Notes under the pieces: generated by a model
What the model was told of the DNA's origin: nothing
Seen by the model: the letters and a program-made list of their open reading frames with translations, nothing else
The model's database searches: none
Translations under genes and position numbers: made by a program
Source of the DNA: Flavobacteriaceae bacterium
Lineage (GTDB): Bacteria; Bacteroidota; Bacteroidia; Flavobacteriales; Flavobacteriaceae
DNA length: 64,000 bases
Direction of reading: 5' to 3'
NCBI GenBank assembly: GCA_022428005.1
Contig: JAKMDI010000006.1
Coordinates: 1 to 64,000, forward strand
Shown here: one piece after another, positions 25,556-58,406 of the stretch
Layout of the letters: each line of letters opens with the position of its first letter
Numbering within the stretch: the stretch's first letter is position 1

Positions 25556-25572
25556 TTTTATAGAAATATAGC

Positions 25573-27090: not shown

Positions 27091-27101
27091 AAATTACAGA
27101 T

Positions 27102-28818: not shown

Positions 28819-28826
28819 TATATTTG
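28819..28826 (+). promoter_or_regulatory. Candidate -7 promoter box upstream of susC 2
   Basis: TATATTTG matches the Bacteroidetes TAnnTTTG -7 element exactly and lies 8 bases upstream of the GTGTTCGAACAC operator core. No clear TTG -33 element is visible. The same box-to-operator arrangement is found before the MFS gene at 48466. Confidence 0.55.
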
Positions 28827-28830: not shown

Positions 28831-28850
28831 CTACGTGTTCGAACACGTAG
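28831..28850 (+). promoter_or_regulatory. LacI-type operator upstream of susC 2 (perfect 20-bp palindrome)
   Basis: CTACGTGTTC followed by its exact reverse complement GAACACGTAG. The 12-bp core GTGTTCGAACAC (28835-28846) has the central CG typical of LacI-family operators. It sits just after a TATATTTG box, so a bound repressor would block the start of transcription of susC/susD 2. The core recurs at 33734 and, with one changed base per half, at 48483 beside the lacI-type gene. Confidence 0.75.
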
Positions 28851-28893
28851 ATGAAATAGTTTAAAAATAATTATTAATTAAATTTACAAAAGT

Positions 28894-31800
28894 ATGAGTT
28901 CTATTGAACTGGGCACATTAAAGACCCATGTGAAATCACTGTCACTTTTAAAGAAAAGCGTGATTTGTGTATTTTTCCTAATAGGTTCATTTGTATCAGC
29001 ACAGCAATCTGTGAGTGGTACTGTGGCTGATCCCGCAGGCGTACCCCTACCCGGTGTGAATGTTGTTATAAAAGGAACCAATTCAGGAACTTCAACAGAC
29101 TTTGATGGAAATTTTACGATTGATGCGGCCAACACTGATGTGTTGATTTTTTCTTTCGTTGGATTCCAAGATCAAGAGGTTACTGTTGGAGAAAATTCGA
29201 CATTCACTATTTCTCTTGCTGAGGAAGCGAGTTTCTTAGATGAAATCATTGTTACTGGTTATGGTACACAAACCCGACGTGAGGTAACCGCCTCGATCGT
29301 CAGGGTTGATTCTGAGACCATCGAGCGAGTAGCAGCGGGGAGTAGTGTAGATGCCATTAAAGGTCAAGTTGCCGGTGTGGACATTACTGCTTCAGGGGGT
29401 AGACCTGGACAAAGTCCACAGGTGCGTATTCGTGGTAGAAGATCTATTTCTGCTTCCAACGATCCACTTTATGTTGTTGATGGAATTCCTGTGACCAGTA
29501 GTGTTGACGGAGGTGCGATTTTTGATATTGCTCCCCAAGACATTGAGTCTATGGAAATCTTAAAGGATGCGGCAGCTACAGCGATCTACGGATCTCGAGG
29601 TGCGAATGGTGTAATCATCATTACCACCAAAAGAGGTAAGTCGGGTGAGCAAACGCAAGTGAGTTACTCTGGTTACTACGGAACCACTGAGGTTCTTAAT
29701 GTACCAGACATGATGAATGGTGAGGAATACAAAGCCATGCGTGCTGAAGCCTTTAGAAAAAATGCAAACAATCAGTTTTCATGGGATGGTCAAATCGAGT
29801 CTGACCTTTATGTTCTTTTTGATGGAGAGCAAGCATTGGTAGATAACTATAATGCTGGTCAGGATTTTAGATACTTAGATGCTGTTCTTAGAACTGGTTC
29901 TCAGCAGTCTCACAATATCTCTGCCAGAGGAGGTACTGAGAAAACTGCTTATAACGCCTCTATAGGCTACTTTAAAGAAGAAGGGATTGTTCCAGGTATG
30001 GATTATGAGCGTATCAACGCGAGACTTAATCTGGACCACAGGATCAATGACATGTTTAAGTTTGGAATGTCTACCACCCTTACTCAGGCGACCAACAACT
30101 GGGGGTCCAATGCAGTGATGAACGAAGCATTGAGAAACTTACCCTTGGGACGCCCTTATTTAGATGACGGTGTTACGCCAAGAATGTTTACTTGGAATGA
30201 TGGTATTGCTACCAACCCATTGGCGGAGATTGTTCCAGGTGCTTACATAGATGAGCGATTGTCTACACGTATATTCTTGCCTACCTATCTTCAGATTACA
30301 TTCAATCCTGATTTAAGGTTTACTACTACTTTTGGACCTGACCTTCGATTTGTTAGAAGAGGTGAATTCAGAAGTGCTGCAACCAACGACAACCGTTTGG
30401 GCCCTGCAGATGCTGAAACTGAAACCAGAAGAGAGCAAGGGTTTACATTAGAAAACCTTTTGACGTATAATAAGGAATTAGGTCCTGGTACATTGAAACT
30501 TACTTTCCTTCAATCGATTCAGGAGTTTACCAGCGAGAGAGGAAAAGCAGAGGTTTTGAATTTACCTTATGAGTCTCAGTTGTGGTACAACATAGGTACT
30601 GCTGCTGTAAAAGGTAACCTGAGTTCTGCACTTTCAGAATGGCAATTACAGTCCTATATGGGCCGTGTGAACTATGATATTAACGGAAAATATTTATTCC
30701 AAGCTTCTATAAGGGGTGATGGATCTTCCAGGTTATCAGAAGGAAACAAGTGGGCGTACTTCCCAGGTGTCTCTGCCGGTTGGAGAATCAACGAGGAAAG
30801 CTTTATGGAGAACGCACCCTTTGATGAATTAAAACTTCGTTTGTCTTATGGAGAAGTAGGAAACACTGCTATCAGCCCCTACCAAACTCAAGGAGGATTG
30901 GCCAGGACGGTTTATTCTTGGAGTGGATCCAGTGCTTTTGGATATCGTGTAAACGACATTCCTAACGCTGATTTAGGTTGGGAAATATCTAAAACATTAG
31001 ACTTTGGTTTAGATTTCTCTTTGATGAATGGAAATATTACAGGTACGTTTGATATTTATCAGACCAAGACCAGTGATTTGATATTGGCGAGAAACTTACC
31101 TTGGACTTCAGGATACGAGAGCGTTTTCCAAAACGTTGGATCTACAGAGACCAATGGTGTAGAATTTGGAGTTAACGCTGTTATTTTAGACAATCCTGAC
31201 GGATTGAACTTTGATGTTAACTTTAACATTTCCAGCTATGACGAGAAGATCACAGAGTTGGCACTTAAAGACGAAAACGGAAATCCACAAGATGACGTAG
31301 GTAATGCTTGGTTTATAGGCCAGCCTGTAAGGGTATTCTACAACTACCAGTATGGTGGAATATATGGTACCAGCGAAGCGGCATTGGCCAGTACTCTCGA
31401 AGGTAAATTACCGGGTGAGATCAGAAGAGCCGATACCAACGGAGATGGTCAGATTACCCCTGATGATAGGGTAGTATTAGGATCTGATGTACCTGATTAC
31501 TTTGGTGGTTTGACGACAAACTTCAGTTATGGAAACTGGGATTTGAGCGCTTTCTTCTACTTTAAGCAAGGACAGATGATCAACAGTAATTTCCACAGAG
31601 GAAATAACTCACTTCAAGGAAGGTACAACAACCTTGATGTTGACTACTGGACACCAGATAATCAAAGCGCAATGTATCCGAGACCAAATATCGGAAACGA
31701 AAGAGCGGTTGATGGAGACCTGTTGAGATATTTTGATGGTAGCTATGTTAAGTTGAGAAACCTAACATTGGGTTATAACTTCGATTCAGAGGTTGTATCT

Positions 31801-31962
31801 GCTATTGGAATGAAAAACCTGAGGGTTTATCTCCAAGGACAGAACCTATGGTTTGGCGCAGACTACGATACTTTTGACCCAGAAGTTGGGGAGGAAACCA
31901 TCGATAGTGGTGTTGCTCCTTCTTCGAGCATGTGGGCATTTGGTGTAAGAGCTAATTTTTAA
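28894..31962 (+). CDS. SusC-family TonB-dependent outer-membrane receptor (pair 2)
   Basis: 1022 residues. The signal peptide has a long polar lead and ends FVSAQ near residue 38. The carboxypeptidase-like domain follows (GVPLPGVNVVIKGT, DFDGNF), then the TonB-box/plug region (FLDEIIVTGYGTQ, ILKDAAATAIYGSRGANGVI) and a barrel ending VRANF. Its N-terminal domain closely resembles SusC 1, suggesting a duplicated import system. A terminator, a TATATTTG box and a LacI-type palindrome precede it, so it starts its own transcript, and susD follows after 19 bases. Likely repressed by the LacI regulator at 47288. Confidence 0.95.
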   Translation: MSSIELGTLKTHVKSLSLLKKSVICVFFLIGSFVSAQQSVSGTVADPAGVPLPGVNVVIKGTNSGTSTDFDGNFTIDAANTDVLIFSFVGFQDQEVTVGENSTFTISLAEEASFLDEIIVTGYGTQTRREVTASIVRVDSETIERVAAGSSVDAIKGQVAGVDITASGGRPGQSPQVRIRGRRSISASNDPLYVVDGIPVTSSVDGGAIFDIAPQDIESMEILKDAAATAIYGSRGANGVIIITTKRGKSGEQTQVSYSGYYGTTEVLNVPDMMNGEEYKAMRAEAFRKNANNQFSWDGQIESDLYVLFDGEQALVDNYNAGQDFRYLDAVLRTGSQQSHNISARGGTEKTAYNASIGYFKEEGIVPGMDYERINARLNLDHRINDMFKFGMSTTLTQATNNWGSNAVMNEALRNLPLGRPYLDDGVTPRMFTWNDGIATNPLAEIVPGAYIDERLSTRIFLPTYLQITFNPDLRFTTTFGPDLRFVRRGEFRSAATNDNRLGPADAETETRREQGFTLENLLTYNKELGPGTLKLTFLQSIQEFTSERGKAEVLNLPYESQLWYNIGTAAVKGNLSSALSEWQLQSYMGRVNYDINGKYLFQASIRGDGSSRLSEGNKWAYFPGVSAGWRINEESFMENAPFDELKLRLSYGEVGNTAISPYQTQGGLARTVYSWSGSSAFGYRVNDIPNADLGWEISKTLDFGLDFSLMNGNITGTFDIYQTKTSDLILARNLPWTSGYESVFQNVGSTETNGVEFGVNAVILDNPDGLNFDVNFNISSYDEKITELALKDENGNPQDDVGNAWFIGQPVRVFYNYQYGGIYGTSEAALASTLEGKLPGEIRRADTNGDGQITPDDRVVLGSDVPDYFGGLTTNFSYGNWDLSAFFYFKQGQMINSNFHRGNNSLQGRYNNLDVDYWTPDNQSAMYPRPNIGNERAVDGDLLRYFDGSYVKLRNLTLGYNFDSEVVSAIGMKNLRVYLQGQNLWFGADYDTFDPEVGEETIDSGVAPSSSMWAFGVRANF

Positions 31963-31981
31963 TTTATAAATATTAAAAGAA

Positions 31982-33643
31982 ATGAAAAAATTTAGATTTT
32001 TATTATCATTTTTAGCCATTGCTGCTTTCACTTCATGTGAGGATTATTTGGATGAAAATAACATAGCCAATGTAACAGCATCCGGTTATTATACAACTGC
32101 ATCTGGATTAGAAGATGCAGTAAGAGCTACTTACGGGATCATGAAAGAATTTTATGGTCCTGAGATAGGCTGGACGATGACTGTGTTTGGAACCGATACT
32201 TACCAGACTGGAGCTGACGGAAGTCACAAGTACATGGGAAGTTATGATTCTGGACACAATTCCGAAGCCCGTTATATGCGTGATACGTGGAGAATTTTTT
32301 ACCGACAGATCAACCAGGCCAATGCCGTTATAGCAAGGTCAGAGGGTGTTGAAGATATGGCTGCAGCTACTAAAACCATGAGAATCGCTGAGGCGAGGTT
32401 TTTAAGAGCGTTGGCTTACTTTAACTTGACCCGTCATTATGGTGACATTCACCTTTCTTTGGAAGAAACTGAAGGAGTGGAGATTGAAGCGAACAAGACG
32501 GCTGCGAGTGAAATTTATTCACAAGCGATTGTACCTGATTTAGAGTTTGCTATTTCAAACTTAGAGGACAACCCAAGCGATTATGGTCGTGCTTCTATCC
32601 CAGCAGCACAGTTTCTACTGGCAAAAGTATTGCTAAGAAGAAGTTATAGTTCTTTTGCAGCTGGAGACGATGCTTCCAGAGCAGAGACATTGATGACCTC
32701 TGTGATCAATAATCCAAGATTTAGCTTATTGGAGAACTTCTCTGATTTGTGGAAGATTGATAACGAGCAAAATGCTGAAGTTATCTGGACGGTACAAAAC
32801 GCCAAGTCACAAGTGGACGAAGGTTTAGATGGTTACGGACACCGTGGTCACTTGTACTTCTTGATGGAGTATGACAAGAAGCCAGCGATGACCCGTGATA
32901 CAGAAAACGGAAGACCATGGAAAAGGTTTAGACCTACGCCTTACTTATTAAGGTTGTGGGACAGAACCATAGACCGTCGTTATGACGAAACATTTAAGCA
33001 TGTTTGGTATGCTAATGTTGGCAATGATGGAGGTCCTAACGGAGTTCCCGTAGCCGTAGGTGATACCGCGCTGTTTATTCCTGGACCAGGAGTGGACAAA
33101 AATGGTGTCGATCAAGATGGTTATTGGAATGCTGCCAAGCAAGCTTCGGTAAACTATGAAGTTTACACATCTGATGAGTGGGATACGCGAACTTTCCCTT
33201 CACTGAACAAGTGGATCGACAATACGCGTCCCAACCGTCAGCACACCCAAGGGCAGAGAGATTTTATCTTGATGCGATTGGCAGATGCTCATTTGATTAG
33301 AGCTGAGGCGCGCTTAAAGCAAGGCAACACTACAGGTGCTGCAGAAGACATCAACCTGATCCGAACCCGTGGTGCTTGGGATGGAAAAGAAGCTGATATG
33401 CAAATTGCAGCTGCTGTTGTTGACTTGGATATGATTCTTGAGGAAAGAGCACGTGAACTGGTAGGAGAAGGCCACAGATGGTACGACCTTACCAGAACGG
33501 GAACTTTGGTTGACAGGGTAAGAGCTCACAACAGTGATGCACAAGCCAATATTCAGTCTCATAATATTATTCGACCTATACCTTTGAGTCAGATTGACAG
33601 AACGCAAGGAGGGTATCCCCAGAATCCTGGATACGCTCAATAA
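31982..33643 (+). CDS. SusD/RagB-family surface glycan-binding lipoprotein (pair 2)
   Basis: 553 residues with lipobox FTSC. SusD-type helices are visible (EARFLRALAYFNLTRHYGDI) and the C-terminal signature ILEERARELVGEGHRWYDL, RTG, IRPIPLSQID and QNPGY is close to that of SusD 1. Partner of SusC 2 in a two-gene operon closed by the terminator at 33666. The glycan specificity cannot be read from sequence. Confidence 0.95.
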   Translation: MKKFRFLLSFLAIAAFTSCEDYLDENNIANVTASGYYTTASGLEDAVRATYGIMKEFYGPEIGWTMTVFGTDTYQTGADGSHKYMGSYDSGHNSEARYMRDTWRIFYRQINQANAVIARSEGVEDMAAATKTMRIAEARFLRALAYFNLTRHYGDIHLSLEETEGVEIEANKTAASEIYSQAIVPDLEFAISNLEDNPSDYGRASIPAAQFLLAKVLLRRSYSSFAAGDDASRAETLMTSVINNPRFSLLENFSDLWKIDNEQNAEVIWTVQNAKSQVDEGLDGYGHRGHLYFLMEYDKKPAMTRDTENGRPWKRFRPTPYLLRLWDRTIDRRYDETFKHVWYANVGNDGGPNGVPVAVGDTALFIPGPGVDKNGVDQDGYWNAAKQASVNYEVYTSDEWDTRTFPSLNKWIDNTRPNRQHTQGQRDFILMRLADAHLIRAEARLKQGNTTGAAEDINLIRTRGAWDGKEADMQIAAAVVDLDMILEERARELVGEGHRWYDLTRTGTLVDRVRAHNSDAQANIQSHNIIRPIPLSQIDRTQGGYPQNPGYAQ

Positions 33644-33665
33644 TCAATTTTTTATAGGATTATAT

Positions 33666-33693
33666 AAAAACCGCCTTCGGGCGGTTTTTTTTT
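33666..33693 (+). terminator. Rho-independent terminator after SusC/SusD pair 2
   Basis: Stem ACCGCC (33670-33675), UUCG loop, GGCGGT (33680-33685), then a run of nine T. The hairpin is identical to that at 28701-28716, suggesting duplication of the unit or a favoured terminator sequence in this genome. Confidence 0.95.
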
Positions 33694-33733
33694 ATACATT
33701 TTTTTATTTACTATAATATACATATATTGTGCT

Positions 33734-33745
33734 GTGTTCGAACAC
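33734..33745 (+). promoter_or_regulatory. LacI-type operator upstream of susC 3
   Basis: Perfect 12-bp palindrome GTGTTCGAACAC, identical to the core of the site at 28835. An AATATTTG lies just downstream (33751-33758), with a TTG at 33727-33729 at 21-base spacing. The operator would then fall between the -33 and -7 elements and occlude RNA polymerase. A weaker TATATTGT at 33723 is an alternative -7 box. Confidence 0.72.
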
Positions 33746-33844
33746 GATTTAATATTTGTGTTCTATTAATTTTTAAACACTAGTTGTTTAAATTTTTTTT
33801 ACACCGAATAAACCAATAAACTATTATTAATTAAAAATTCATTT

Positions 33845-36800
33845 ATGATTCGTTTCAAAAGTTTATCAGACCAAAGTCAGCTTTTGAGCTTTTTCAAAAG
33901 AAGCTTGCTTTTGATTTTGGTTTTTGTAGGATCTCAAGTCATGGGACAGCAGTCGATTAGCGGTACTGTCTCTGATGAAAATGGTCCACTACCAGGAGCC
34001 ACAGTTGTGGTTCAAGGAACCAGTAATGGAGTATCTACCGATTTTGACGGTAATTTTTCCATTCAGGCCAGTGCAGGTGATGTATTGGAAGTCTCTTATG
34101 TAGGTTTTCAAACGCAACTGATCACTGTCTCCGCCAACCAAGACACAATTGCAGCAGTTCTTGCCGCTGACAATGAGCTCGAGGAAGTGGTGGTAACTGG
34201 CTACGGTACTCAGAAAAAAGTAAATCTAACGGGTGCTGTTGCGGCAGTTTCTGGAGAGGTTTTAGAGGACCGTCCTATTGTTAATGTTGGAGAAGGATTA
34301 CAAGGTGTGATTCCGAACCTAAACATTGACATTAGAAATGGTGATCCTACTACGGCGCCTGAGTTCAACATTAGAGGGTTTGAGTCTATCAACGGTGGTA
34401 CGCCACTTATCTTGGTAGATAATGTTCCTATGGACATTGGAAGTCTAAACCCCAATGACATTGAGAGCATCAGTGTATTAAAGGATGCTTCCTCAGCGGC
34501 GATCTACGGAGCGCGTGCGGCTTTTGGTGTGATACTGATTACCACCAAAAAAGGAAAGCCTGGAAAAGCTGTTGTTAACCTAACCACAGAGTTTTCTTGG
34601 GGAAAGCCAATCATGCGAATGGATCCAATTACCGATCCCTATGAGTATGCCAAAGCGAGAAATATCGCTAATATCAGGACCAATGGTGCGCCTTCTTATG
34701 ATGACGATTATATGGCTGCAGCATTGAACTACAGTCAAAACCCAACACCGGAGAATGCTTGGTTTAGAGATGGTACAACTTTAACTTTTGTTGGTTACAA
34801 CGATTTTATGGACATGTATCTAAAAGACTGGATCCCACAGCAGCGTCATAATTTGAGTGTATCTGGAGCTACAGAAAAATCTAACTACTATGTGTCTCTC
34901 GGATTCCTTAATAAAGAAGGTTGGATAAAAAATGATGCTCACAACATCAATTATGACCGTTACAACGTTTTGGCCAAGGTCAACTATCAGATTACTGATT
35001 GGTTAGAAATGGACACCAAAACGCTTATAACCATGGAAGAGAACGATGAGCCTCACTTTTACAACTGGGACGTAAACATCAACTCTTTTGCCAGAATGGG
35101 TGCAAGAGCCACTCATTTTCCTGACTTGCCTTACTATTTAACTCCTGGGGACCGCTCGCAGTATGAGCAGCATATTGGACAGCCATTTATGACCACGAGT
35201 CCTATCCCTTACTATGAGCAAGGAGGAAGAGACCTAATGCACTCCATGGATGTATTAGTAACTCAAGGTATAACCATTAAGCCTATGGATGGGTTGAAAG
35301 TTAGGGCCGAGTTCTCTCCCAATTACACTTACATCAAAACAGAAGACCAAAGAACCAGAGTGACTGGTATTGAAGCTAGTACCAGTATTGATTTGTCTAA
35401 TATTCGATACGGAAATGGATTCTCCGCTACTGATTTTCTTGAGAATCGATACGACAAAAGGTTCTACTATGTATTTAACGCTTATGCAGATTATACTTTT
35501 GAGCCAGAAAATTCTCCGCACTACTTGAATGCTATTGTTGGATTCAACCAAGAACTTGGAGAAAGACATTACCTTAGAGGTAAAGCTTACAGTTTGATCA
35601 CTCCAGCGATTACGAATATAAATGCTACGGTGGGTGCTCAAGAAGCTTATAGTGGTGCTTCTCATGTATCTTTAAGAGGGGTGTTTTACAGGTTGAATTA
35701 TATTTTTCAGGACAAATATTTAATTGAACTTAACGGTCGATACGACGCTAGTTCAAGGTTCCCCACTGATGATCGATTTGATTTCTTCCCTTCATTTTCT
35801 GCAGGGTGGAAAATTTCAGAAGAGGACTTTATGGCTGATCTTACCGGCGCATGGTTAGACAACTTAAAAATTAGAGGTTCTTATGGAGAACTGGGTAACC
35901 AGTTGCTGGGAAGTAACTACTATCCTTACATTCCCACTATGGGCTCAGGTACTTCTAACTATTTAATCGGTTCAGGTTCAAGAGCACCTTATGTATCTCC
36001 TGCTGGACTGGTCAGTGATGATCTAACCTGGGAAACAGTAGCTTCTACCAACTTTGGTGTTGATGCAACCTTATTGGACAGCCGTTTAGACATTACTTTT
36101 GATTTGTTTAAAAGAGAAACAAGAGATATGTTGATGCAAGTTGAGCAACCCGATATTTTGGGAACAGGTGCACCTGATACCAATGCTGCTGATCTTGAAA
36201 CAAAAGGTTGGGAACTTTCTGCAACTTGGAAAAACCAAGTGGATGATGATTGGTACTACGGTGTAACCTTAGCCCTTTCTGATAGCCAGGCTGAGATTAC
36301 CAAGTACGATAACCCAACAGGTTCCTTGAACGAATATTATGTTGGACAACAAATCGGAGAGATTTGGGGTTATAGAACGGGTGGATTATTCCAAACCGAT
36401 GCTGCTGCTCAAGAAAATGACCTTTCTGATCTCGGTAACAACTGGGGTGCTGGAGACGTTGCTTTCTTAGATCTTACAGGAGATGGCAAAGTTGACCCAG
36501 GAAACCAAACTTTGGAAAATCCTGGTGATAGAACCATCATTGGAAACTCCAGTATGCGTTACAGATTTGGATTGAACCTGGATTTGAGATACAAAAACTG
36601 GACATTGAACACCTTTTTCCAAGGTATTTTAGATGGAGATTACTTCCCGCCAACAGGAAACTGGAATGCTTTCTGGCCATGGAATGCTGGAAATGCAGAG
36701 TGGTATTATATCACCGATTCTTGGACACCTGAGAATCCTAACGCATATTTCCCAGCACCACATATTGGTTATAACGATAAGAAAAACTATCATGTAAACG

Positions 36801-37039: not shown

Positions 37040-37057
37040 TTTTAAAATTTTTAGAAA

Positions 37058-38857: not shown

Positions 38858-38881
38858 GTCAATCCCATTACTACAAATATT

Positions 38882-38915
38882 ACAAAGCCATCTTTTTAGA
38901 TGGCTTTGTTTTTTT
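38882..38915 (+). terminator. Rho-independent terminator after SusC/SusD pair 3
   Basis: A perfect 12-bp stem, ACAAAGCCATCT (38882-38893) with AGATGGCTTTGT (38898-38909), a TTTT loop and a T run. It separates the SusC/SusD units from the lyase operon. The roughly 140 bases to the next start at 39058 are AT-rich with no clear operator. Confidence 0.93.
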
Positions 38916-39057
38916 GCAATGGTCTGATTTTAAGAATATAATTTTTTTTTTATTGATTCATTTTTGCTATTTTGTATTAGAAATACCAAACCAAATTACA
39001 TACCTTATATAGTACTTTTTATGAGTGAGTATAAGGTTAAACCAAACAATTAACCAA

Positions 39058-40980
39058 ATGAAATTTTTAAAGCCAGCTTTATTGCTCACTTTTTTGTTTT
39101 TGTATTCCTGTAAAGGAGATGCAATTAAAGAAAACGCAAATGAGGAAACACCATTGTCCAATCCATTTACATCCTCATTTCTTACCAACAACCTCAGAGA
39201 GGATTTGCCCAGATTGGTATTAAATGAAGAAATAGACCAAGTACTACGAACCAAGCTGAAAACAGATCCTGTGGTACAAAATATCTATGAGGCCATCAAA
39301 AGGAATGCCGAACAAGTGATGCAAAAATCTTTTTTAGAGCGCATAAAAATCGGCAGGCGTTTGCTTTCAGTTTCTAGAGAAATGCTTTACAGAATTAATA
39401 TGTTGGGGATGGTGTATCATGTAGACAAGGACCCAATGGTTTTGAAACGTATTGAAGGAGAGCTAAAAGCTGTTTGTACATTTTCAGACTGGAACCCCTC
39501 TCATTATCTCGATGTTGGAGAAATGTCAATGGCAGTAGCTTTCGCTCTTGATTGGACCGCAGGAGCATTACCAGACAGTACTAAAGAGCTGGCCATTAAT
39601 GCTTTAATTGAAAAAGGTATCAATCCAAGTTATGAAACCGATAAAAGGTCTAATACATGGTGGATTAATGGAAATAATAATTGGAATCAGGTTTGTAATG
39701 GAGGTATGATCGCTGCTGCTATAGCCATAGCAGAACGCGATCCCGAATTGGCAGCAAAAACCATCAGAAGATCCATAGACGGACTACCTCATGCCCTGGA
39801 CGAATACGGGCCCGATGGGGTATATCCTGAGGGGTCCACCTATTGGGGTTATGGGACAGTCTTTTCTGTTGTTACCAATGCCATGCTTGAAAGTGCTTTT
39901 GGAACCGATTTTGGTTTAGGGGATTACCCAGCATTTAAGGAAAGCGCCCTTTTTAGGGTGTTGATGAATACACCCTCTGGATGGTATTATAATTTTGCCG
40001 ATTGTGGAGACAAACGCAGCGAAAATGGAGATATTACTTTAGCCTGGTTTGCAGCCAAGTCTGGAGATGAATTGTATTACGAGAGAAATAGATTACTCAG
40101 ATCACCCAGTAAAATAGGAAAACTCAGGCGATTGGATGGCGCTGGTTTGGTGTGGTTGGCACAATATGAAAAAAAAATGGACAGTAATTTACCGTTTTCA
40201 TGGAAAGGAGAAGGTGCTAACCCGATAGCGGTTTTTACTGGAGGAACCGATGACCCATATGGATATTATTTTGGAGGTAAAGGTGGGCGTGGAACCGTAA
40301 ATCACGGCAATATGGATGGGGGTTCTTTTATTTTTGAACTCAACGGTGTAAGATGGGTATTCGATCCAGGAAATCAAAACTATAACGCCTTAGAACAAAC
40401 AGGTTTTGATCTTTGGAATAAGTCGCAAGACAGTGAAAGGTGGACTTTACTCAACAAGGGTAATTTTGGACACAGTACCCTTACCGTTAACAACCAATTA
40501 CATGTAGTAGACGGAAAAGCAACCATCATAGATTTTAAAGAAGGGGATACTCCACAGGTTACTTTTGACCTCAGTCCTACCTTTGAAGGCCAGCTTAAAA
40601 GTGCACAGCGCACTTTTACCAAGGACAGTAATGTATCATTAGTGATCGACGACAAAATTGAAGTCTCAGACGAGACTGAACTGATTACATGGCAATTAAT
40701 GACCACATTAGACGTAGAAATCACCAGTAATGGAGCAACGCTTAGTAAACCAGAGTATTCCTCGATTACTCCAGTGAAAAAATTATACATAGAAAACTTA
40801 AGCCATTCCGATATAAAGATGAATGTCGTTTCTCTGGATCCACCACCATTGGAATTAGACCGAAGAATTGAAAACCTCAAAAGGATAGAATTAAAGATCC
40901 CAGCATCCCGAGCTGAAAGTGGGAAATTAGACATTAAAGTAAAACTCAGGGGCCAAAAAAATTGGCGGGAGGGATATTAG
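39058..40980 (+). CDS. Heparinase II/III-fold lipoprotein, possible polysaccharide lyase or uronate dehydratase
   Basis: 640 residues from the ATG at 39058 (MKFLKPALL, lipobox LYSC). A longer reading from GTG at 39025 adds only a polar tail and would hide the signal. It has an alpha/alpha toroid (NGNNNWNQVCNGG, 205-216; STYWGYG with Y262 and Y265) and a C-terminal beta-sandwich with N415-H416-G-N-M-D420-G-G-S-F, the motif region that carries the catalytic or metal-binding His in heparinase-like lyases. It differs from both other heparinase-fold proteins here. Some homologues of this fold in marine ulvan loci act on chain-end uronates as dehydratases rather than lyases; which applies here is unknown. 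First gene of a five-gene operon. Confidence 0.8.
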   Translation: MKFLKPALLLTFLFLYSCKGDAIKENANEETPLSNPFTSSFLTNNLREDLPRLVLNEEIDQVLRTKLKTDPVVQNIYEAIKRNAEQVMQKSFLERIKIGRRLLSVSREMLYRINMLGMVYHVDKDPMVLKRIEGELKAVCTFSDWNPSHYLDVGEMSMAVAFALDWTAGALPDSTKELAINALIEKGINPSYETDKRSNTWWINGNNNWNQVCNGGMIAAAIAIAERDPELAAKTIRRSIDGLPHALDEYGPDGVYPEGSTYWGYGTVFSVVTNAMLESAFGTDFGLGDYPAFKESALFRVLMNTPSGWYYNFADCGDKRSENGDITLAWFAAKSGDELYYERNRLLRSPSKIGKLRRLDGAGLVWLAQYEKKMDSNLPFSWKGEGANPIAVFTGGTDDPYGYYFGGKGGRGTVNHGNMDGGSFIFELNGVRWVFDPGNQNYNALEQTGFDLWNKSQDSERWTLLNKGNFGHSTLTVNNQLHVVDGKATIIDFKEGDTPQVTFDLSPTFEGQLKSAQRTFTKDSNVSLVIDDKIEVSDETELITWQLMTTLDVEITSNGATLSKPEYSSITPVKKLYIENLSHSDIKMNVVSLDPPPLELDRRIENLKRIELKIPASRAESGKLDIKVKLRGQKNWREGY

Positions 40981-41005
40981 TCGATCATTTAATTTAAACT
41001 AAAAA

Positions 41006-43093
41006 ATGATTTATAATTTAAAATTGCAAAGCGTTGTAATTATTGCGTTCTTATGGGTCGCGTTTGGTGGAAAGTCAATAGCCCAACTATCAAAAACAGA
41101 TATTGATAAGGCCATTGATATTTCCGCATTGGAACATCCCTATCTCTATTTCAACAATTTAGAAAAGCAACAACTGATCAACAGAATTGAAAACGATCAG
41201 GAAAGCAATGATGTTTTTCGACAATTGGAAGCGAAGGCAAAGGTATGGATGGCCATGCCCTTAGAAAAAAACATACCCACTCAGGGAAAAAATACTCGAG
41301 CTAACTGGTCTGAGGATGATAGAAGTGGCAACTATGCAGCCTATTACAACGCGAACAGGAACAACGCATTCTACCTTGCCTTTCTCTATCAGATTACTGG
41401 AGAGGAAAGCTATGCACAAAAAGCATTTGAGTTTGCCGATGCCTTTTGTGATCTAACCACATGGACCCAACGTGCACACGAATTTCCAATAATCTACTCA
41501 AGAATAATGCCATGGAATGTACCTGATGATCAGGTAAATTTTAATTTTGACCACTTCAATGGAGATTCTGGTCGAATGATGGCAGCTGTTTATGACTGGT
41601 TGTACCCAGCGCTCTCCCAATTGCAAAGAGACCGAATCCGTGGAGCGCTCATAGAAAAAGTAATCACTCGGGTTAGGGGTGATTACGAATTTCATTGGTG
41701 GGCTACCGCCTACCGATGCAATTGGTGTGGTGTCTGTAATTCTGGTGTGGGTTTGGCAGGCTTAACGCTACTTAAAGAACACCCCCAATTGACCGATATA
41801 GTGGCAGAGTCCTATAACCGAATCAACAGTATGTTTGATGAACTGGGGGTTGATGGAGGCTGGCAGGAAGGAGGTTCCTATTGGAATTATGGGGTACATA
41901 CGTCTTCTTTTTTTGCGGATGCTTTAAAACGTTTAACGCGTGGAAAGCACAACCTCTTTAAAAATAAAAGACTGTCCGAGAACCCTGTGACTTTTCCTTT
42001 AAACATATCCTTACCAGGAAAAAAATCCCTCAACTTTGAAGACTCTGGCGGGGGGGGATTAGTTGGTAGTGCCCATTTGATAAACAAATTGGCAACAGAG
42101 ACAAAAAACCCACAAGCAGCATGGTACCGAGAATATATGAACAGACCCGCAGATAATATTTTTGATATAATATGGCCACGCCCCGATTTTAAGGGAGTTC
42201 CACCAGAACAAGCCTCTATTCATTTTAAAACAATTGATTGGTGGGTAATGAGGAGTGATTTTTCCAGTTCAGAAAAGGTAATCGTTGCCGGAAAGGCAGG
42301 GAAAAACGATGATCCGCATCACGGTCATCTCGATATAGGTCACTTTATTGTTTATTGGAACAAGGAGTATTATATCAAAGACTTGGGAAAAAGTGGTTAC
42401 GACGAGAAATACTTTGACGAAGTGCGATTTGATTATCCCGAGGCCTCCAGTGCAGGTCACAATACCATTTCCGTCGATGGAGAACAGCAAATTTCAGGGA
42501 AATATTACAAACAGCCCTATGACTACAGTGTAGGAGGGAAGGTGTTGGAGTTTAGATCTACAAGAGCGCGCGACTATGTCCTTATGGATCCCACTGATGC
42601 TTATCCCAAAAAATCATTAAAAAAATGGAGGAGAAGCATTCTCTTGAGCAAGCCAGAGATCACCCTTGTTTTGGATGAAATCCATACCGAGAAAAACGCA
42701 AATATTGAAGTTCGATTCCACCCAGGGGTATCCGCTGAGGTAAAAAAAGAACACGTTTTGCTTTCGGGTAAAGAAGGGAAAATGGCATTGATCCCCATCT
42801 CAGTATCTGATTTTTCAATCGACAAAGGAAGACATCCCTCCCAAATGGTCAACGCTACTCAACCCTTTAGTTGGATTGAATACTTTGACATAACCATACA
42901 ATCTAAATCTAATAAGACTCTGGTGGCTACCCTAATACTTCCTGTATCAGATGAAAATCAAATTCAGGAAATCATCGCATCAAAATATATGAAGCCCGAG
43001 AAGAATGGAGGTATTAGTTTGAATTTTAGTGTTGACAACAGACCGTTTACCTATTATTTTAAGAAAACAAAAGAGGGGCTGGTTTTAGAATAA
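41006..43093 (+). CDS. Heparinase II/III-fold polysaccharide lyase
   Basis: 695 residues, signal peptide ending SIAQ. The N-terminal alpha/alpha toroid contains CNWCGVCN245SG and EGGSY292WNYG, and the C-terminal beta-sandwich contains DPHH439GH441LD443IGHF. Asn/Tyr/His in this order matches the catalytic layout of heparinase III and alginate-lyase-like families, with the beta-sandwich His cluster as a likely metal site. Predicted beta-elimination beside a uronic acid, periplasmic. Substrate and PL family are not identified. It follows the preceding heparinase-fold gene by 25 bases and precedes the BNR_4 protein by 40. Confidence 0.83.
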   Translation: MIYNLKLQSVVIIAFLWVAFGGKSIAQLSKTDIDKAIDISALEHPYLYFNNLEKQQLINRIENDQESNDVFRQLEAKAKVWMAMPLEKNIPTQGKNTRANWSEDDRSGNYAAYYNANRNNAFYLAFLYQITGEESYAQKAFEFADAFCDLTTWTQRAHEFPIIYSRIMPWNVPDDQVNFNFDHFNGDSGRMMAAVYDWLYPALSQLQRDRIRGALIEKVITRVRGDYEFHWWATAYRCNWCGVCNSGVGLAGLTLLKEHPQLTDIVAESYNRINSMFDELGVDGGWQEGGSYWNYGVHTSSFFADALKRLTRGKHNLFKNKRLSENPVTFPLNISLPGKKSLNFEDSGGGGLVGSAHLINKLATETKNPQAAWYREYMNRPADNIFDIIWPRPDFKGVPPEQASIHFKTIDWWVMRSDFSSSEKVIVAGKAGKNDDPHHGHLDIGHFIVYWNKEYYIKDLGKSGYDEKYFDEVRFDYPEASSAGHNTISVDGEQQISGKYYKQPYDYSVGGKVLEFRSTRARDYVLMDPTDAYPKKSLKKWRRSILLSKPEITLVLDEIHTEKNANIEVRFHPGVSAEVKKEHVLLSGKEGKMALIPISVSDFSIDKGRHPSQMVNATQPFSWIEYFDITIQSKSNKTLVATLILPVSDENQIQEIIASKYMKPEKNGGISLNFSVDNRPFTYYFKKTKEGLVLE

Positions 43094-43133
43094 GTTTCCT
43101 GTACTCAATGATAAATATCCTAAAATCATAAAG

Positions 43134-44561
43134 ATGAAAAACATCCTTTTGCTCATAGCATTTCCTTTATTGATTCATTGTGAAAACAGCACAAAAAAGC
43201 AGCTTGTTATTGATGAGTCAGATTACAAAGAGGTGGTTGAACAAGTCATTAAGATCGATTCCGTTTGGTCAGGACACAGTGTGGGATTTGCTTTGCTAAC
43301 CCATGAGCAAAGGCAATACATTGCTTACTACAACGCCAATCGAAATATGGTTGTGGGACAGAGAAATTTGAGTGATGATCAATTTGAACTACACATATTA
43401 CCCTCTCCAGCAAGGGCGCCAAATTCACCAGAGCAGGGCAGAAGATATTCGGCCACTCAAATAGGTTGGGATTCTCACAATTACATTACCATGGCTGTTG
43501 ATAAAACAGGATACCTGCACCTTTCAGGAAATATACACGTTGATCCCTTGACTTATTTTAGAAGTGAAAAACCGCATGATATTACTAGCTTAAAGCAACA
43601 CTATACTATGGTAGGCCCCAATGAGAAACGTACCACTTACCCCAAATTCATGCACACTAAAGAAAATGAGTTGCTTTACCACTACCGCGATGGAAGCAGT
43701 GGAAATGGCAACGAAATTTACAATCGATACGAGGTGGATTCTCAGCAATGGAAACGAATGTTGGATGTCCCACTGACCGATGGTGAAGGCCTCATGAACG
43801 CCTACCAGTCGCAGCCAGAGATTAGAGAGGACGGATGGTATCACGTTTATTGGGTTTGGAGAGATACCCCCGATTGCTCTACCAATCACGACCTATCCTA
43901 TATGAAAAGTCCTGACCTCAAAAACTGGTATAATGCCTTTGACCAACCCATTAGTCTCCCTGCTACATTAAATCAAAAATCGTTGATCGTAGATCCCATC
44001 CCAGTAAAAGGAGGGATCATTAATTTGGCAGCAAAATTGCAACTGGATAAAAATAATAAAGCTGTTTTTACCTACCACAAATATGACCAAGCAGGAAATC
44101 TTCAAATCTACATAGCTCAAGTCAAAGGCCAAAAGTGGGTTTACAAGCAGCTCACTGATTGGGATTACCGTTGGGCATTTTCTGGAAATGGAAGTATCCA
44201 AAATGAATTTAGATTTAGAAGTTTTAAAAAAAGACCTGATGGACTCTACGAAATTGGCTATTGGCACATCAAGTATGGAGAAGGCATAATTTTACTCGAC
44301 GATGAATTTGATCCAGTTGGAACGGTTATTAGAGATTTACCACTTTTTTCCAGCAGCCGCTTTGAAAAAAGGATAAAGACTGAGGGTGCTTTTAAAGGCT
44401 TGAATGTGGTGAGCTCAAAAGACTTAGGAAGTTCTCCAAACCAGGGGATAAGGTATGCGCTGAAGTGGGAGGCACTCGATCGCTTTAGGGATCGCCCCAG
44501 ACCAAAGCCCTGGCCCAAACCAAGTAAATTATATCTTTATAAATTAAAAAAAACACCTTGA
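43134..44561 (+). CDS. BNR_4-type beta-propeller lipoprotein, candidate ulvan-lyase-like polysaccharide lyase
   Basis: 475 residues, with lipobox LIHC. It matches the BNR_4 (PF15892) pattern: GYLH129LSGNIH135VDPLTYFRS, then YPKFMH, LLYH183YRDGSSGNGNEI and QPEIREDGWYHVYWVWR. Seven-bladed propellers of this type include ulvan lyase families PL24 and PL25, where His and Tyr/Arg residues around the central funnel act in catalysis; H129, H135, H183 and R185 are candidates here. Ulvan-lyase assignment is a hypothesis from fold and context, not a demonstrated match. The C-terminal tail is proline/lysine-rich (RPRPKPWPKPSK). It lies between a lyase and a GH105 gene, as expected for a lyase. A sialidase-like glycosidase is less likely. 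Confidence 0.7.
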   Translation: MKNILLLIAFPLLIHCENSTKKQLVIDESDYKEVVEQVIKIDSVWSGHSVGFALLTHEQRQYIAYYNANRNMVVGQRNLSDDQFELHILPSPARAPNSPEQGRRYSATQIGWDSHNYITMAVDKTGYLHLSGNIHVDPLTYFRSEKPHDITSLKQHYTMVGPNEKRTTYPKFMHTKENELLYHYRDGSSGNGNEIYNRYEVDSQQWKRMLDVPLTDGEGLMNAYQSQPEIREDGWYHVYWVWRDTPDCSTNHDLSYMKSPDLKNWYNAFDQPISLPATLNQKSLIVDPIPVKGGIINLAAKLQLDKNNKAVFTYHKYDQAGNLQIYIAQVKGQKWVYKQLTDWDYRWAFSGNGSIQNEFRFRSFKKRPDGLYEIGYWHIKYGEGIILLDDEFDPVGTVIRDLPLFSSSRFEKRIKTEGAFKGLNVVSSKDLGSSPNQGIRYALKWEALDRFRDRPRPKPWPKPSKLYLYKLKKTP

Positions 44562-44660
44562 GGTAATCCAGCATTATGATCCTAAGAATGAGCACATTTT
44601 TACCAAACTTTAATTACACTAAACTGTTAAGTATTATATTTAAAAAATAATTATAAAAAC

Positions 44661-45803
44661 ATGAAAAAAATTATCAACTGCATCACATTTTTATTTGTTT
44701 CAGCTGCATTATTTGCACAAAACGACAAAGTTACTGAGATAAAAAACATAATGGAAAAAGTGGCCGACTGGCAAATTGAAAATCATGACAATTTAGAATA
44801 CAGGGCCCAAAATAAGAGATTGTCCAGAGGGAAGCATCATCCGTTAGACTGGACCAATGGGGCATTGTATGTGGGCATGTCTAAATGGGCAGAAATGGCA
44901 GACAGTGACAAGTATTATGAGTGGCTAAAAGGTATAGGTGAAACCCATGATTGGAAACTGCACTTGAGAAATGGTTATTATGCCAGAGTTTTTCATGCAG
45001 ATGACCATACTGTAGGGCAAACCTATTTTCATCTTTATAGAAAATACAAAGAAGAAAAAATGATAAAGCCTACAATCAAGCAATTTGATTTTATTCTATA
45101 CCATCCTTCCAAAACAAAAATGGATTGGCAATCCCCCTTTCATCAGGACAGATGGAACTGGTGTGATGCTTTGTTCATGTCACCACCGGTATGGGTAATG
45201 GCATCCAATCTGACCAGAGATAGGAAATACATCGACTTTATGGTCAAAGAGTGGAAAGCCACTACAGACCATTTGTTTGATAAAAAGGAAAGCCTGTATT
45301 ACAGAGATGGTTCTTACTTTAATAAACTCGATAACGGAACCAAAATTTTCTGGGGCAGAGGAAATGGATGGGTATTTGCGGGATTATCGAATGTTATGGA
45401 TGAGCTTGGACCTGATGATAAAGAGTATCCTTATTTCCTAAAGCTTTATAAAAAAATGGCGAAAAAACTCTTAGAGATTCAAACTCCTGAGGGGCATTGG
45501 GCAATGAGTCTATTGGGGCAAGAATTTTATCCTACGCCAGAGACCAGTGGATCTTCATTCTTCACTTTTGGTTTGGCTTGGGGTATCAATGAAGGGATAC
45601 TGGACCGTGCCACTTACCTTCCTGCGGTAGAAAAGGCATGGAAAGCCATGATGGGTCATGTCACAGAAGAAGGGATGCTTTCCTATGTTCAGCCCATTGG
45701 TGCAGAGCCTGGTGAAGCCTATCCCGACAAAACTGAGGTTTATGGGGTTGGTGCTTTTTTAAGTGCTGGTTCAGAGATGTATAAACTTTATGGAGGGAAA
45801 TAG
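44661..45803 (+). CDS. GH105-family unsaturated uronyl hydrolase
   Basis: 380 residues, a typical single-domain length, with a signal peptide ending LFAQ. The (alpha/alpha)6 barrel shows WNWCD169ALFMSPP, with the conserved Asp, and WGRGNGWVFAGL, ETSGSSFFTFGLAWG and VYGVGAFLSAG. It should hydrate the double bond of the terminal unsaturated uronate, releasing 5-dehydro-4-deoxyuronate for KduI. It is similar to the catalytic half of the fusion at 16839 but lacks the DUF1961 tail. Separated from the BNR_4 gene by 99 bases, enough for a separate promoter, though none is clearly visible. Confidence 0.92.
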   Translation: MKKIINCITFLFVSAALFAQNDKVTEIKNIMEKVADWQIENHDNLEYRAQNKRLSRGKHHPLDWTNGALYVGMSKWAEMADSDKYYEWLKGIGETHDWKLHLRNGYYARVFHADDHTVGQTYFHLYRKYKEEKMIKPTIKQFDFILYHPSKTKMDWQSPFHQDRWNWCDALFMSPPVWVMASNLTRDRKYIDFMVKEWKATTDHLFDKKESLYYRDGSYFNKLDNGTKIFWGRGNGWVFAGLSNVMDELGPDDKEYPYFLKLYKKMAKKLLEIQTPEGHWAMSLLGQEFYPTPETSGSSFFTFGLAWGINEGILDRATYLPAVEKAWKAMMGHVTEEGMLSYVQPIGAEPGEAYPDKTEVYGVGAFLSAGSEMYKLYGGK

Positions 45804-45829
45804 TATTTTTTCAGTTTTATAACAACAAT

Positions 45830-47287
45830 ATGCATATACGATTATTCTGTTTGGGGGTTTTACTGCTGTCTTTTTCCTGTAAAACTTCCCCAGAAGTGGT
45901 TCAGGGTCCTTATTTCGCAAATGGTCTTAAAAATGGTTGGGCCGATCAGAATTCAATTGTGATTTGGACCCGGCTGACGCAGGAAAAAGCCGCTTTTTAT
46001 GAGGGCCAACCTTTTTTGGAAATCCCCAGAAAAGAAATGCTTTCTTTAGCCAAAAACCCTGATGTTGAGGCCATATATGCTTCCCAAATTCCCACTGGAG
46101 CATCCTTAGAAGACATGGAGGGCTACTGCCCGGGTGCTGCTGGTCAGGTAAGGTTAAAATATCATCAGTTGGGAAAGGAAAATGAAGTGGTGGTCACCAA
46201 GTGGACTGAGGTCGATTCGGACAAAGATTATACCCATCAGTGGAAATTGGAGGGACTTTCGGCTGGTAGTACCTATCGTCTTAAGATATATGCCAGGGCA
46301 AAGGAGGGGTCCAGAGTTTCAGACAGTATTAGTGGAAAGTTTATTTTACCCCCTCATAAAGAAATCAGCAGCGATGTGAAGTTCTGCGTAGTATCTTGTC
46401 ATGACTACAACCGCCGAGACGATTTGGAAAATGGGCATAAAATATATCCCAGTATGACAGATTTAAAACCAGATTTTTATGTGCATACTGGAGACATTGA
46501 ATACATGGATAAACCCACTCCCTATGCCCTAACGGAGGAATTGGTTCGATTTAAATGGAATCGTTTGTTTTCACTACCCTTTCAAAAGAAATTTTACAAC
46601 CAGCACACCTCTTATTTTATGAAAGATGATCACGATGTGGGATTCGATGACAGCTATCCAGGAAGAGATTATGGTACCGTAACTTTTGAGCGGGGTTTAG
46701 AGATATTCGACGAGGAGCAATTTCCAAGTTATTCCAAAAGGTACAAGACCGTCAGATGGGGTAAAGACTTACAAGTATGGATCGTAGAAGGCCGTAACTA
46801 CAGAAATCAAAACTCCTTAAAAGACGGTCCCGAAAAGACCATTTGGGGTAAAGAACAAAAGCAATGGTTTTTTGAAACTGTTACTCAGTCCGACGCTACC
46901 TATAAGGTATTGATTACCTCATCGCCAATTTTGGGTCCAGATCGCAGCTCAAAAAATGATAATCTCAGCAATGCTACTTACTCTTATGAACAAGGGGAAA
47001 TTTTGAGTTTTATAAAAAAGCAGAAAAATATCTTTATCGTTAACGGAGACCGGCATTGGCAATACGTTACCCACATAAAGGATACCAACCTTTGGGAATT
47101 TGGATGTGGTGCAGGAGCAGACGTTCATGCGGGCGGATGGAAACAAGAAGATTTCCGACCAGAACATCAATTCCTCAGAGTCAAGGGCGGCTTTCTATCG
47201 GTGAGCGTTACCCATAACGATAACCCTAAAATCCAGTTTATCCATCACGATGTGGAGGGCAACCCGGTCAATGAGGGTACTTTTTAG
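45830..47287 (+). CDS. PhoD-like metallophosphoesterase lipoprotein (paralogue 2)
   Basis: 485 residues, lipobox LSFSC. Same architecture as the protein at 24074: an Ig-like N-domain (QGPYFANG, VIWTRL), then a metallophosphatase domain with HTGDIEYMD, KDDHDVGFDDSY, GDRHWQYVT and HAGGWKQEDFRPEH. The two are evident paralogues but differ in cell location (lipid-anchored versus soluble periplasmic). Both are in the PUL and both sit beside uronate-releasing genes, so a glycan substituent is a likely target. Its stop codon abuts that of the convergent LacI gene with no bases between, and no terminator hairpin is seen. Confidence 0.88.
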   Translation: MHIRLFCLGVLLLSFSCKTSPEVVQGPYFANGLKNGWADQNSIVIWTRLTQEKAAFYEGQPFLEIPRKEMLSLAKNPDVEAIYASQIPTGASLEDMEGYCPGAAGQVRLKYHQLGKENEVVVTKWTEVDSDKDYTHQWKLEGLSAGSTYRLKIYARAKEGSRVSDSISGKFILPPHKEISSDVKFCVVSCHDYNRRDDLENGHKIYPSMTDLKPDFYVHTGDIEYMDKPTPYALTEELVRFKWNRLFSLPFQKKFYNQHTSYFMKDDHDVGFDDSYPGRDYGTVTFERGLEIFDEEQFPSYSKRYKTVRWGKDLQVWIVEGRNYRNQNSLKDGPEKTIWGKEQKQWFFETVTQSDATYKVLITSSPILGPDRSSKNDNLSNATYSYEQGEILSFIKKQKNIFIVNGDRHWQYVTHIKDTNLWEFGCGAGADVHAGGWKQEDFRPEHQFLRVKGGFLSVSVTHNDNPKIQFIHHDVEGNPVNEGTF

Positions 47288-48358
47288 TTACTCAATGGAA
47301 TATTTTCTTTCCTCAGAGTGACTGAACATGTAATTTTCCTTGGTAATGATTTCTAAAGGCGTTGGGATTTCATTGCTTGGAATTTCTTTGTGGACCAGGA
47401 AATTTGCAATGGTTATTATAGATTTATAGCCTTGGTTAAATGATTTTTGTGAGATGAGAAATGTAACATCACCACGCTTTAAAAAATCAATGTTTTGAGG
47501 GGTAGTGTCAAAACCGATGATTCTGAGATCAACAAGCTTTTCTTTATCGATCGCTTTACAAACAACTGACACCCTACTCGATGGAACAACAACCCCTTTC
47601 ACTTTAGGGTGCTTTTCTATAAATTGATTTATTTTTTCTCTGCTCCTAAAGACTTCATCGGGCTGGTTGAACTGTAATTTGTGAATTTTGGTTTTGGAAT
47701 TACTCTTCTGATGAAAATCGAGAAAACCCTCTATACGATCCTGAATTGCTTCGTGATTAAACAAGTTTTTTCGCGTAAGCACCATTAGAATTTCATCATC
47801 TTCAGTAGTACATATATTCGATAGTTTACCAGCAAGAATACCAGCTTCAAAAGACTTTTGTCCAATATAACACAAGCTATCAGAGCCTTTTAAATTAATG
47901 TTGAGAAATAGGTAGGGAATTTTTTTGTTCTTGAGTGTTTCTATAATTGCTTTTGTTTCTTTTAAAAAAATTGGGACTAAAATAACCGCGTCAGGACTGG
48001 TTTTGATCAATTCCCGAAAAGCTTTAGCATAGCTATTGGGATCAAATTGATTGAAGGTAAAGATATGGTTTTCGATACCATAGGCTTTTACTTCCTGACT
48101 GCCTTTTTCAATTCCTGAGTGTGGTGATTTCCAAAAAATATTTTGTTGATCAAAGTTTGGGATGAGGGTGGCCAATGTATGGTTTTTCTTCATGGCCAAA
48201 GAGCTCGCGATCAAATTGATCTTAAAGTTACGCTCCTTTAAAATTTTATTGACTTTCTGCTCTGTTTCAGTCGATACCCCACCGCGATTGTGCAATACCC
48301 GGTCTACAGTACCCGCAGACACATTAGCTTCCTTTGCAATGTCCTTTATGGTTATCAA
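47288..48358 (-). CDS. LacI-family transcriptional regulator
   Basis: 356 residues. An N-terminal helix-turn-helix (residues 4-30: IKDIAKEANVSAGTVDRVL) is followed by a hinge helix (about 48-57) with L54 in the place where LacI proteins insert a Leu at a central CG step. A periplasmic-binding-protein-like ligand domain runs to the end (FDQQNIFW, PDAVILVP, VVVPSSR, IIGFDTTP). It lies divergent to the MFS/uronate operon, with a palindromic operator between them, so it most likely represses that operon and is released by a uronate or KDG-like intermediate. Matching palindromes before susC 2 and susC 3 suggest they are also targets. Ligand unknown. Confidence 0.92.
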   Translation of the reverse strand: MITIKDIAKEANVSAGTVDRVLHNRGGVSTETEQKVNKILKERNFKINLIASSLAMKKNHTLATLIPNFDQQNIFWKSPHSGIEKGSQEVKAYGIENHIFTFNQFDPNSYAKAFRELIKTSPDAVILVPIFLKETKAIIETLKNKKIPYLFLNINLKGSDSLCYIGQKSFEAGILAGKLSNICTTEDDEILMVLTRKNLFNHEAIQDRIEGFLDFHQKSNSKTKIHKLQFNQPDEVFRSREKINQFIEKHPKVKGVVVPSSRVSVVCKAIDKEKLVDLRIIGFDTTPQNIDFLKRGDVTFLISQKSFNQGYKSIITIANFLVHKEIPSNEIPTPLEIITKENYMFSHSEERKYSIE

Positions 48359-48465
48359 TATTCTTTGATTAGTTCCTACTCATAACTAAATAAAATTAGT
48401 ATTAATTTCTTACAATTATGTAAATAATATCAAGATCTTGGGGGGCACTTTTAAAATCCTTTCAA

Positions 48466-48473
48466 TATATTTG
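48466..48473 (+). promoter_or_regulatory. Candidate -7 promoter box for the uronate operon
   Basis: TATATTTG, an exact TAnnTTTG match, lies 9 bases upstream of the operator core at 48483 and 43 bases upstream of the MFS start. The same box at nearly the same distance precedes the operator at 28835. No good -33 TTG is at standard spacing (the nearest TTG is 25 bases upstream). Confidence 0.55.
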
Positions 48474-48482
48474 TAAGTAGGT

Positions 48483-48494
48483 GTGTACGCACAC
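48483..48494 (+). promoter_or_regulatory. LacI-type operator upstream of the MFS/uronate operon
   Basis: GTGTACGCACAC, a palindrome with one mismatch in each half and a central CG, fits GTGTnCGnACAC together with the two GTGTTCGAACAC sites. It lies in the 150-base gap between the divergent LacI and MFS genes, just downstream of a TATATTTG box, where repression by roadblock would be expected. Autoregulation of the lacI-type gene is possible. Confidence 0.7.
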
Positions 48495-51856: not shown

Positions 51857-51871
51857 GTTAAAATATTTAAT

Positions 51872-53056: not shown

Positions 53057-53058
53057 GC

Positions 53059-55448: not shown

Positions 55449-55450
55449 TT

Positions 55451-58398: not shown

Positions 58399-58406
58399 TT
58401 TAAAGT

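Follow-up and report, generated by a model that had tools for sequence, protein, structure and literature searches.

The window examined here, the first 64,000 bases of contig JAKMDI010000006.1 (C20) of a Flavobacteriaceae assembly of 1,721,375 bases in 23 contigs (82.47% complete), carries SusC/SusD genes for glycan import, a uronate catabolic operon and, beside that operon, a gene for a LacI-family regulator at 47288..48358 on the minus strand. Short palindromes of the pattern GTGTNCGNACAC stand in front of two of the SusC genes and of the uronate operon. These palindromes are very probably the operators of this LacI protein, a predicted hexuronate-type repressor that would be shared by glycan import and uronate catabolism. 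A first-pass annotation of the same DNA had proposed one regulator for both processes; the proposal is now supported by the detection of a single LacI helix-turn-helix (HTH) domain in the genome, by the co-conservation of site and ortholog, and by sites before SusC/SusD genes in 12 of the 21 other genomes of the genus.

The exact pattern GTGTNCGNACAC occurs three times in the window, at 28835, 33734 and 48483, compared with none in 100 dinucleotide-preserving shuffles (expected 0.00). With up to two mismatches, seven matches were seen and 13.07 expected, so that such matches are rarer than chance, and the excess over chance is limited to the exact sites. All three share the central CG reported earlier, and each lies in the gap before an open reading frame (ORF), as had been described. 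Operator 1 (28831..28850, core 28835-28846, GTGTTCGAACAC) precedes the SusC-like gene SusC2 at 28894, operator 2 (33734..33745, again GTGTTCGAACAC) precedes the SusC-like gene SusC3 at 33845 and lies 100 bases from its start codon, and operator 3 (48483..48494, GTGTACGCACAC) is located between lacI and the uronate operon, which begins with a major facilitator superfamily (MFS) gene at 48509. The three sites had been called perfect palindromes, which holds for operator 1, where the symmetry extends over 20 bases, and for operator 2. Operator 3 is imperfect: its reverse complement is GTGTGCGTACAC, with 10 of 12 positions symmetric.

Many random copies of the motif away from promoters had been named beforehand as the outcome that would refute the proposal, and a genome scan did not show them. 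In the 1.72-Mb genome the exact pattern occurs five times, at the three window sites and at C6:60276 and C6:65238 on a second contig, and all five copies are in gaps before genes; the reversed pattern occurs once. C6:60276 precedes a Gfo/Idh gene heading a run of DUF6807, phosphatase, esterase and GH78 rhamnosidase genes, and C6:65238 separates a 3-keto-disaccharide-hydrolase/sulfatase run from a divergent sulfatase gene (the mechanically called ORF of the latter begins inside the site, and the ATG at L006 15284 was taken as its start). Allowing one mismatch raised the genomic count from five to seven places, compared with 20 in all for the reversed pattern, and degenerate sites were set aside because this control was commoner.

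Contigs C6 and C20 are probably neighbours, because 20 bases are common to the end of C6 and the start of C20 (window 1-47 versus the end of L006) and because the gene order in two genus members, G010 and G002, fits: in both, C6-type genes precede SusC1, with one extra sulfatase-like gene between. In G002 one contig holds the C6-type genes together with the SusC1 run and the lacI/uronate operon, but it lacks the runs of SusC2 and SusC3 and the GH88 gene after them. From the contig ends and this gene order we take all five exact sites to belong to one sulfated-glycan/uronate locus of ∼76 kb. The operator marks this locus, not SusC/SusD genes in general: the window holds three of the genome's six SusD genes, and the other three are on contigs C2, C7 and C10, which are without any site.

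The product of the 47288 gene matches the LacI HTH domain PF00356 over residues 3-46 (E 3.9e-14) and the periplasmic-binding-protein-like sensor domain PF13407 (Peripla_BP_4; E 2.8e-30), a combination that places it in the LacI family, as annotated at first pass. The leucine pointed out earlier at hinge residue 54 (numbered from the TTG start) is present, and it is invariant in 22 aligned sequences, this one included. In the LacI family this leucine contacts the central CG of the operator, and the hinge leucine and an even palindrome with central CG are both found here in the sequence. Such a palindrome is the usual form of LacI operators (PMC4052901; this and the other papers are cited from parts of their text). 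UxuB-like, UxuA, UxaC and KduI genes adjoin the regulator gene, and the predicted cognate operator upstream of its own operon is conserved, as is characteristic of hexuronate-type LacI repressors. The best match among solved structures is 3gbv, a putative LacI-family regulator that lacks the HTH part. A second LacI was looked for in the genome and none was detected. Domain scans of 42 window ORFs (out of 64; the remaining 22 are short ORFs overlapping those 42) revealed no other transcription factor and no recognisable hybrid two-component or anti-sigma system. Genome-wide, nothing matched FecR, and the one Reg_prop match was a weak single repeat on C19, in an assembly with the completeness given above and in which SusR-type regulators were not searched.

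The LacI protein at 47288 is the probable binder of the site and the uronate operon likely an old target, because the site tracks lacI orthologs and uxu genes. Searching 60 genomes, own included, with the regulator protein gave matches in 41, many in the first part only. In the genus, 17 lacI loci have upstream DNA (own included); 15 of these contain the exact site, 124-375 bases upstream of lacI in the exact cases, and two a one-mismatch site. An 18th ortholog, that of G021, is interrupted by a contig break, and the exact site lies upstream of its N-terminal fragment. Eight more distant loci comprise four with an exact site, two with one mismatch and two with none. Named Bacteroidota relatives were represented by the best 80 of 589, three of which (L121-L123) are genus members also counted as G017, G010 and G020. 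Within 500 bases upstream of lacI, 52 of the 80 have the exact site, compared with 0-1 of 80 for each of eight control palindromes, and all 1.49 Mb of these loci contain it 87 times versus 0-3 times for control palindromes of the same form. Presence of the site is clustered in a tree of 81 LacI proteins, with 12 changes versus a shuffled mean of 23.4 (none of 500 shuffles as low), and uxuA/uxuB/uxaC genes (at least 40% identity) are nearby in 44 of the 52 loci with the site versus 7 of the 28 without.

Every one of the 22 genus genomes has sites, 1-8 each and 81 in all (reversed control, 11). After removal of own and lacI-gap sites, 61 were left and all were examined. Fifty-nine are within -60 to +260 bases of an ORF start, compared with 843 of 5000 random positions in the same DNA, in a count that leaves out unlabelled ORFs shorter than 250 residues; the two others are in G013 and G001. 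SusC or SusD genes are preceded by 16 of the 61 (two of these matches are just 30-33% identical). Other sites precede sulfatase-like genes (17), Gfo/Idh genes (11) and 3-keto-disaccharide hydrolase genes (9), where one site may count twice, and 12 precede solely genes that match nothing in the window or C6 set. Scans of ten unlabelled neighbours identified ThuA, DUF5916, H+-pyrophosphatase, glycerate kinase, DUF6807, DUF819 and GH39.

Many of the sites follow closely on a promoter box of the form TAnnTTTG. As described before, this applies to two window sites: TATATTTG, a -7-type box, is found on the plus strand at 28819..28826, 8 bases before operator 1, and at 48466..48473, 9 bases before operator 3. 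In 53 of 100 site-gene pairs, drawn from related and hence not independent sequences, TAnnTTTG ends shortly before the site, compared with 1/100, 0/99 and 1/97 in shifted windows, and the site begins 1-12 bases past the box in 48 of these 53. Upstream of lacI, the layout of TATATTTG, 8-11 bases and GTGT.CG.ACACG is present in all 16 exact genus cases. Sites with a box probably overlap or adjoin the transcription start, where a bound protein would block, and the frequent placement of the site just behind the box suggests that the binder acts as a repressor.

From the positions of the sites, their promoter context, their co-conservation with lacI and their recurrence before susC genes, all of them read from sequence, we infer binding, repression and the kind of effector. 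Most likely the LacI protein represses by blocking the start site until an intermediate of uronate breakdown in the cytoplasm releases it, with uptake and catabolism opening together. When the inducer is absent, a LacI dimer on GTGTNCGNACAC, which in most cases with a recognisable TAnnTTTG box is just behind that box, would block transcription of the MFS-uronate catabolic operon, of susCD2, of susCD3 with its lyases and GH88, and of three units on the C6 end, namely the Gfo/Idh-to-GH78 run, the 3-keto-disaccharide-hydrolase/sulfatase run and the divergent sulfatase. Low basal expression would admit the first oligosaccharides, and a product of cytoplasmic uronate breakdown (glucuronate, fructuronate, 2-keto-3-deoxygluconate (KDG) or similar) would release LacI, so that the locus opens together. 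The result would be a self-contained local regulon.

Several observations weigh against a shared LacI repressor. In the window the SusC3 site at 33734 has no box directly upstream, and a close box is lacking in 47 of the 100 site-gene pairs. No exact site is seen upstream of SusC1 in the visible DNA; SusC1 orthologs in G010, G002, G008 and G004 do have the operator. Loss of a SusC1 operator at the contig break was considered and rejected, the contig ends having ∼20 bases in common and the visible upstream DNA no site; the SusC1 run may be read from the C6:65238 promoter. In the closest relative, G017 (69%), the lacI-gap site has one mismatch and the central CG is altered. The exact site is missing from 28 of the 80 named relatives, ten of which have a one-mismatch site within 400 bases (counted without a control). 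No intact ortholog was detected in G006, G007, G013 and G018, yet these genomes, with assemblies 67-91% complete, have 1, 4, 1 and 2 sites; G013 is without uxuA too. The G002 ortholog contains one internal stop. Because the genome studied here is itself incomplete, a second LacI could be missing from the assembly.

Such a missing paralog, or another regulator with a similar operator, might bind the susC sites and leave the 47288 protein in control of the uronate operon only. Besides the incomplete assembly, this explanation can draw on a second, weakly similar LacI-type match in several genus members (e.g. G001:C11 and G005:C50), and on the second free inner base, which is C in 15 of 16 lacI-gap sites, compared with A in seven and C in five of 16 SusC/SusD sites. 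We nevertheless think separate control unlikely: one LacI HTH was detected in the genome, the same eight fixed bases are found at both kinds of promoter, and 11 of the 12 genomes with SusC/SusD sites have an ortholog (the G002 copy with its internal stop), G018 having a broken copy only. Shared control by the 47288 protein could also take another form, with LacI as an activator or dual regulator and bound sites needed for transcription. Sites farther from the start codon, such as that of SusC3, and the pairs without a close box would fit this idea, but the position of the site 1-12 bases past the box in most box-bearing cases, where it probably covers or adjoins the transcription start, argues for blocking, and most LacI proteins bind DNA without ligand (PMC4052901); we regard activation as improbable. 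We give next to no credence to the view that the palindromes are hairpins or chance promoter sequence and not protein sites. By eye, the palindrome at 28831-28850 could form an RNA hairpin, but palindromes of the same form used as controls hardly occur in the DNA in which the site was counted, the sites track lacI and uxu genes across the phylum, and a separate terminator-like hairpin (33666..33689, plus strand) lies between SusD2 and the SusC3 promoter, before the SusC3 site, with a similar one, judged by eye, before the SusC2 site.

The predicted shared repressor has several known counterparts. Eleven regulons for monosaccharide use have been reconstructed in Bacteroides, four of them LacI-type uronate regulons (PMC3878776). 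These regulators, KdgR (BT0487), UxaR (BT0824), UxmR (BT3613) and UxuR (BT1434), are likewise LacI-family proteins of uronate catabolism with regulons from comparative genomics (PMC3878776, PMC4052901), and UxaR, UxuR and KdgR form one branch (PMC4052901). The KdgR and UxmR regulons include a limited number of periplasmic or extracellular genes, and the regulons described as containing SusC/SusD are those of ManR and AraR (PMC3878776; AraR also PMC4666351). ManR (GntR family) and AraR (NrtR family) are likewise single cytoplasmic regulators of monosaccharide catabolism and SusC/SusD uptake; they differ from the window LacI in protein family and sugar, and the AraR-controlled SusC/SusD operon is additionally under a hybrid two-component system (PMC3878776). 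In Zobellia galactanivorans, also a marine flavobacterium, a repressor controls a polysaccharide utilization locus (PUL) for a uronate polymer (Dudek et al. 2020, via PMC7874173), although it belongs to the GntR family and the polymer is alginate. Among alginate clusters of 32 genomes, LacI proteins make up 8 of 29 annotated regulators (PMC7874173), and for the xylan PULs of Gramella flava a LacI protein is mentioned (PMC5306329). SuxR of Xanthomonas campestris (LacI/GalR) is likewise a LacI-type repressor of a TonB-dependent receptor and sugar use genes; it differs in that the host is a Proteobacterium and the sugar sucrose, and no SusD-like protein is reported in Xanthomonas (PMC1790865). 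The cited part of PMC10766802 offers no closer parallel. Judged by titles and abstract openings among the matches listed, none of the papers found in a literature search describes this operator or a LacI-controlled ulvan-type PUL.

The first-pass annotation had remarked that the usual PUL regulators are not visible here, which stands for the hybrid two-component and anti-sigma systems in the scanned window ORFs. That this is unusual is just partly right, similar regulators controlling SusC/SusD genes having been described already. Shared control of uronate and SusC/SusD genes by LacI would accordingly not be a first of its kind, because monosaccharide-type regulators that also control SusC/SusD are known, but it appears to be a well-supported and unusually clean addition to the regulators of sugar catabolism and SusC/SusD.

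A wider reading is possible, which we hold at a little below even confidence. Across this genus of marine flavobacteria, whose genomes are small, an entire sulfated rhamnose/uronate locus of ∼76 kb would be without a glycan sensor. One cytoplasmic LacI repressor that senses uronates would be the sole gate on import, desulfation, depolymerisation and catabolism, and its operator would have been captured promoter by promoter, in different combinations in different species, from the ancestral uronate operon. The case bears on how the induction of PULs may start within the cell, with an end product in the role otherwise played by a surface-glycan sensor. It also supplies a specific operator sequence, together with a likely regulator, for marine polysaccharide degraders that are known mostly from incomplete assemblies, and the operator predicts which operons respond together. 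As it accompanies related LacI proteins across Bacteroidota, it can aid the reading of uronate-linked regulons, SusC/SusD pairs included, from genomes.

All other genes described in the window are on the plus strand. A run of SusC1/SusD1, sulfatase, GH92, GH88 and lyase genes (48..28664, from domain scans) has no exact operator of its own. It is followed by the SusC-like TonB-dependent receptor SusC2 (28894..31962; Plug, CarbopepD_reg_2) and SusD2 (31982..33643; SusD_RagB), and by SusC3 (33845..37039) and SusD3 (37058..38857), both from domain scans. The SusC3 run continues with two heparinase II/III-type polysaccharide lyase-like genes (39025..43093; domain scan for both, structure match for the second), a BNR_4 gene (43134..44561; domain scan and structure match), a GH88-type gene (44661..45803) whose nearest solved relative is an unsaturated 3S-rhamnoglycuronyl hydrolase, and, as its last gene, one for a PhoD-like protein (45830..47287; domain scan). 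On the other side of lacI, the uronate operon consists of the MFS sugar porter gene (48509..49843; domain scan) and genes for Gfo/Idh, a UxuB-like SDR, UxuA, UxaC, TRAP DctP/Q/M, DUF4861, a PfkB kinase, a KDPG-type aldolase, KduI and an SDR (49850..61758).

These genes suggest an ulvan-type sulfated polymer of rhamnose and uronate as the substrate, because sulfatases, GH88 and heparinase-type lyases are present in the window and GH78 on C6, and because of the nearest relatives of the BNR_4 and GH88 proteins. The BNR_4 protein resembles, among others, L-rhamnose-alpha-1,4-glucuronate (L-Rha-alpha-1,4-GlcA) lyases, with a weaker similarity to short ulvan lyases; its best matches (5muk and others) are presumably of GH145 type. 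The exact polymer is less certain, because the structures matched by the heparinase-type lyases are of the chondroitinase and alginate-lyase types rather than ulvan lyases.

Further arrangements of the operator were observed in relatives. In many, lacI is preceded by two operators at fixed distances of ∼30-34, 60 or 89-90 bases (L125-L130, L133, L143, L148, L150, L153, L155-L158 and L167), and spacings of 41, 56 and 76 bases occur in L160, L184 and L151; such pairs suggest paired binding or looping. In the Phocaeicola/Bacteroides relatives L166, L187 and L197, beside UxaC, the two-mismatch variant GTTATCGAACAC lies upstream of lacI and is perhaps a gut variant of the operator; Bacteroides/Phocaeicola matches in the set are 35-36% identical to the regulator. 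Two genus members have an operator before an H+-pyrophosphatase gene (L087 (G004) 3015 and L102 (G018) 3065). In L066 and L067 it separates SusC3 from a divergent glycerate kinase gene, and an ORF of glycerate kinase size at that same place in L108 is perhaps a third case. Outside the genus, two Pedobacter loci have an operator pair 56 bases apart before SusC-like genes of ∼30% identity (L193 16117/16173 and L199 17794/17850), and a Sphingobacteriales locus has an operator before a SusC-like gene of ∼30% identity (L186 599). Past the window on contig C20 (L201 3042-7260), downstream of the locus, PSCyt/PSD1 and DUF1501 genes adjoin 3-keto-disaccharide hydrolases, and one of these domains bears Planctomycetes in its name.

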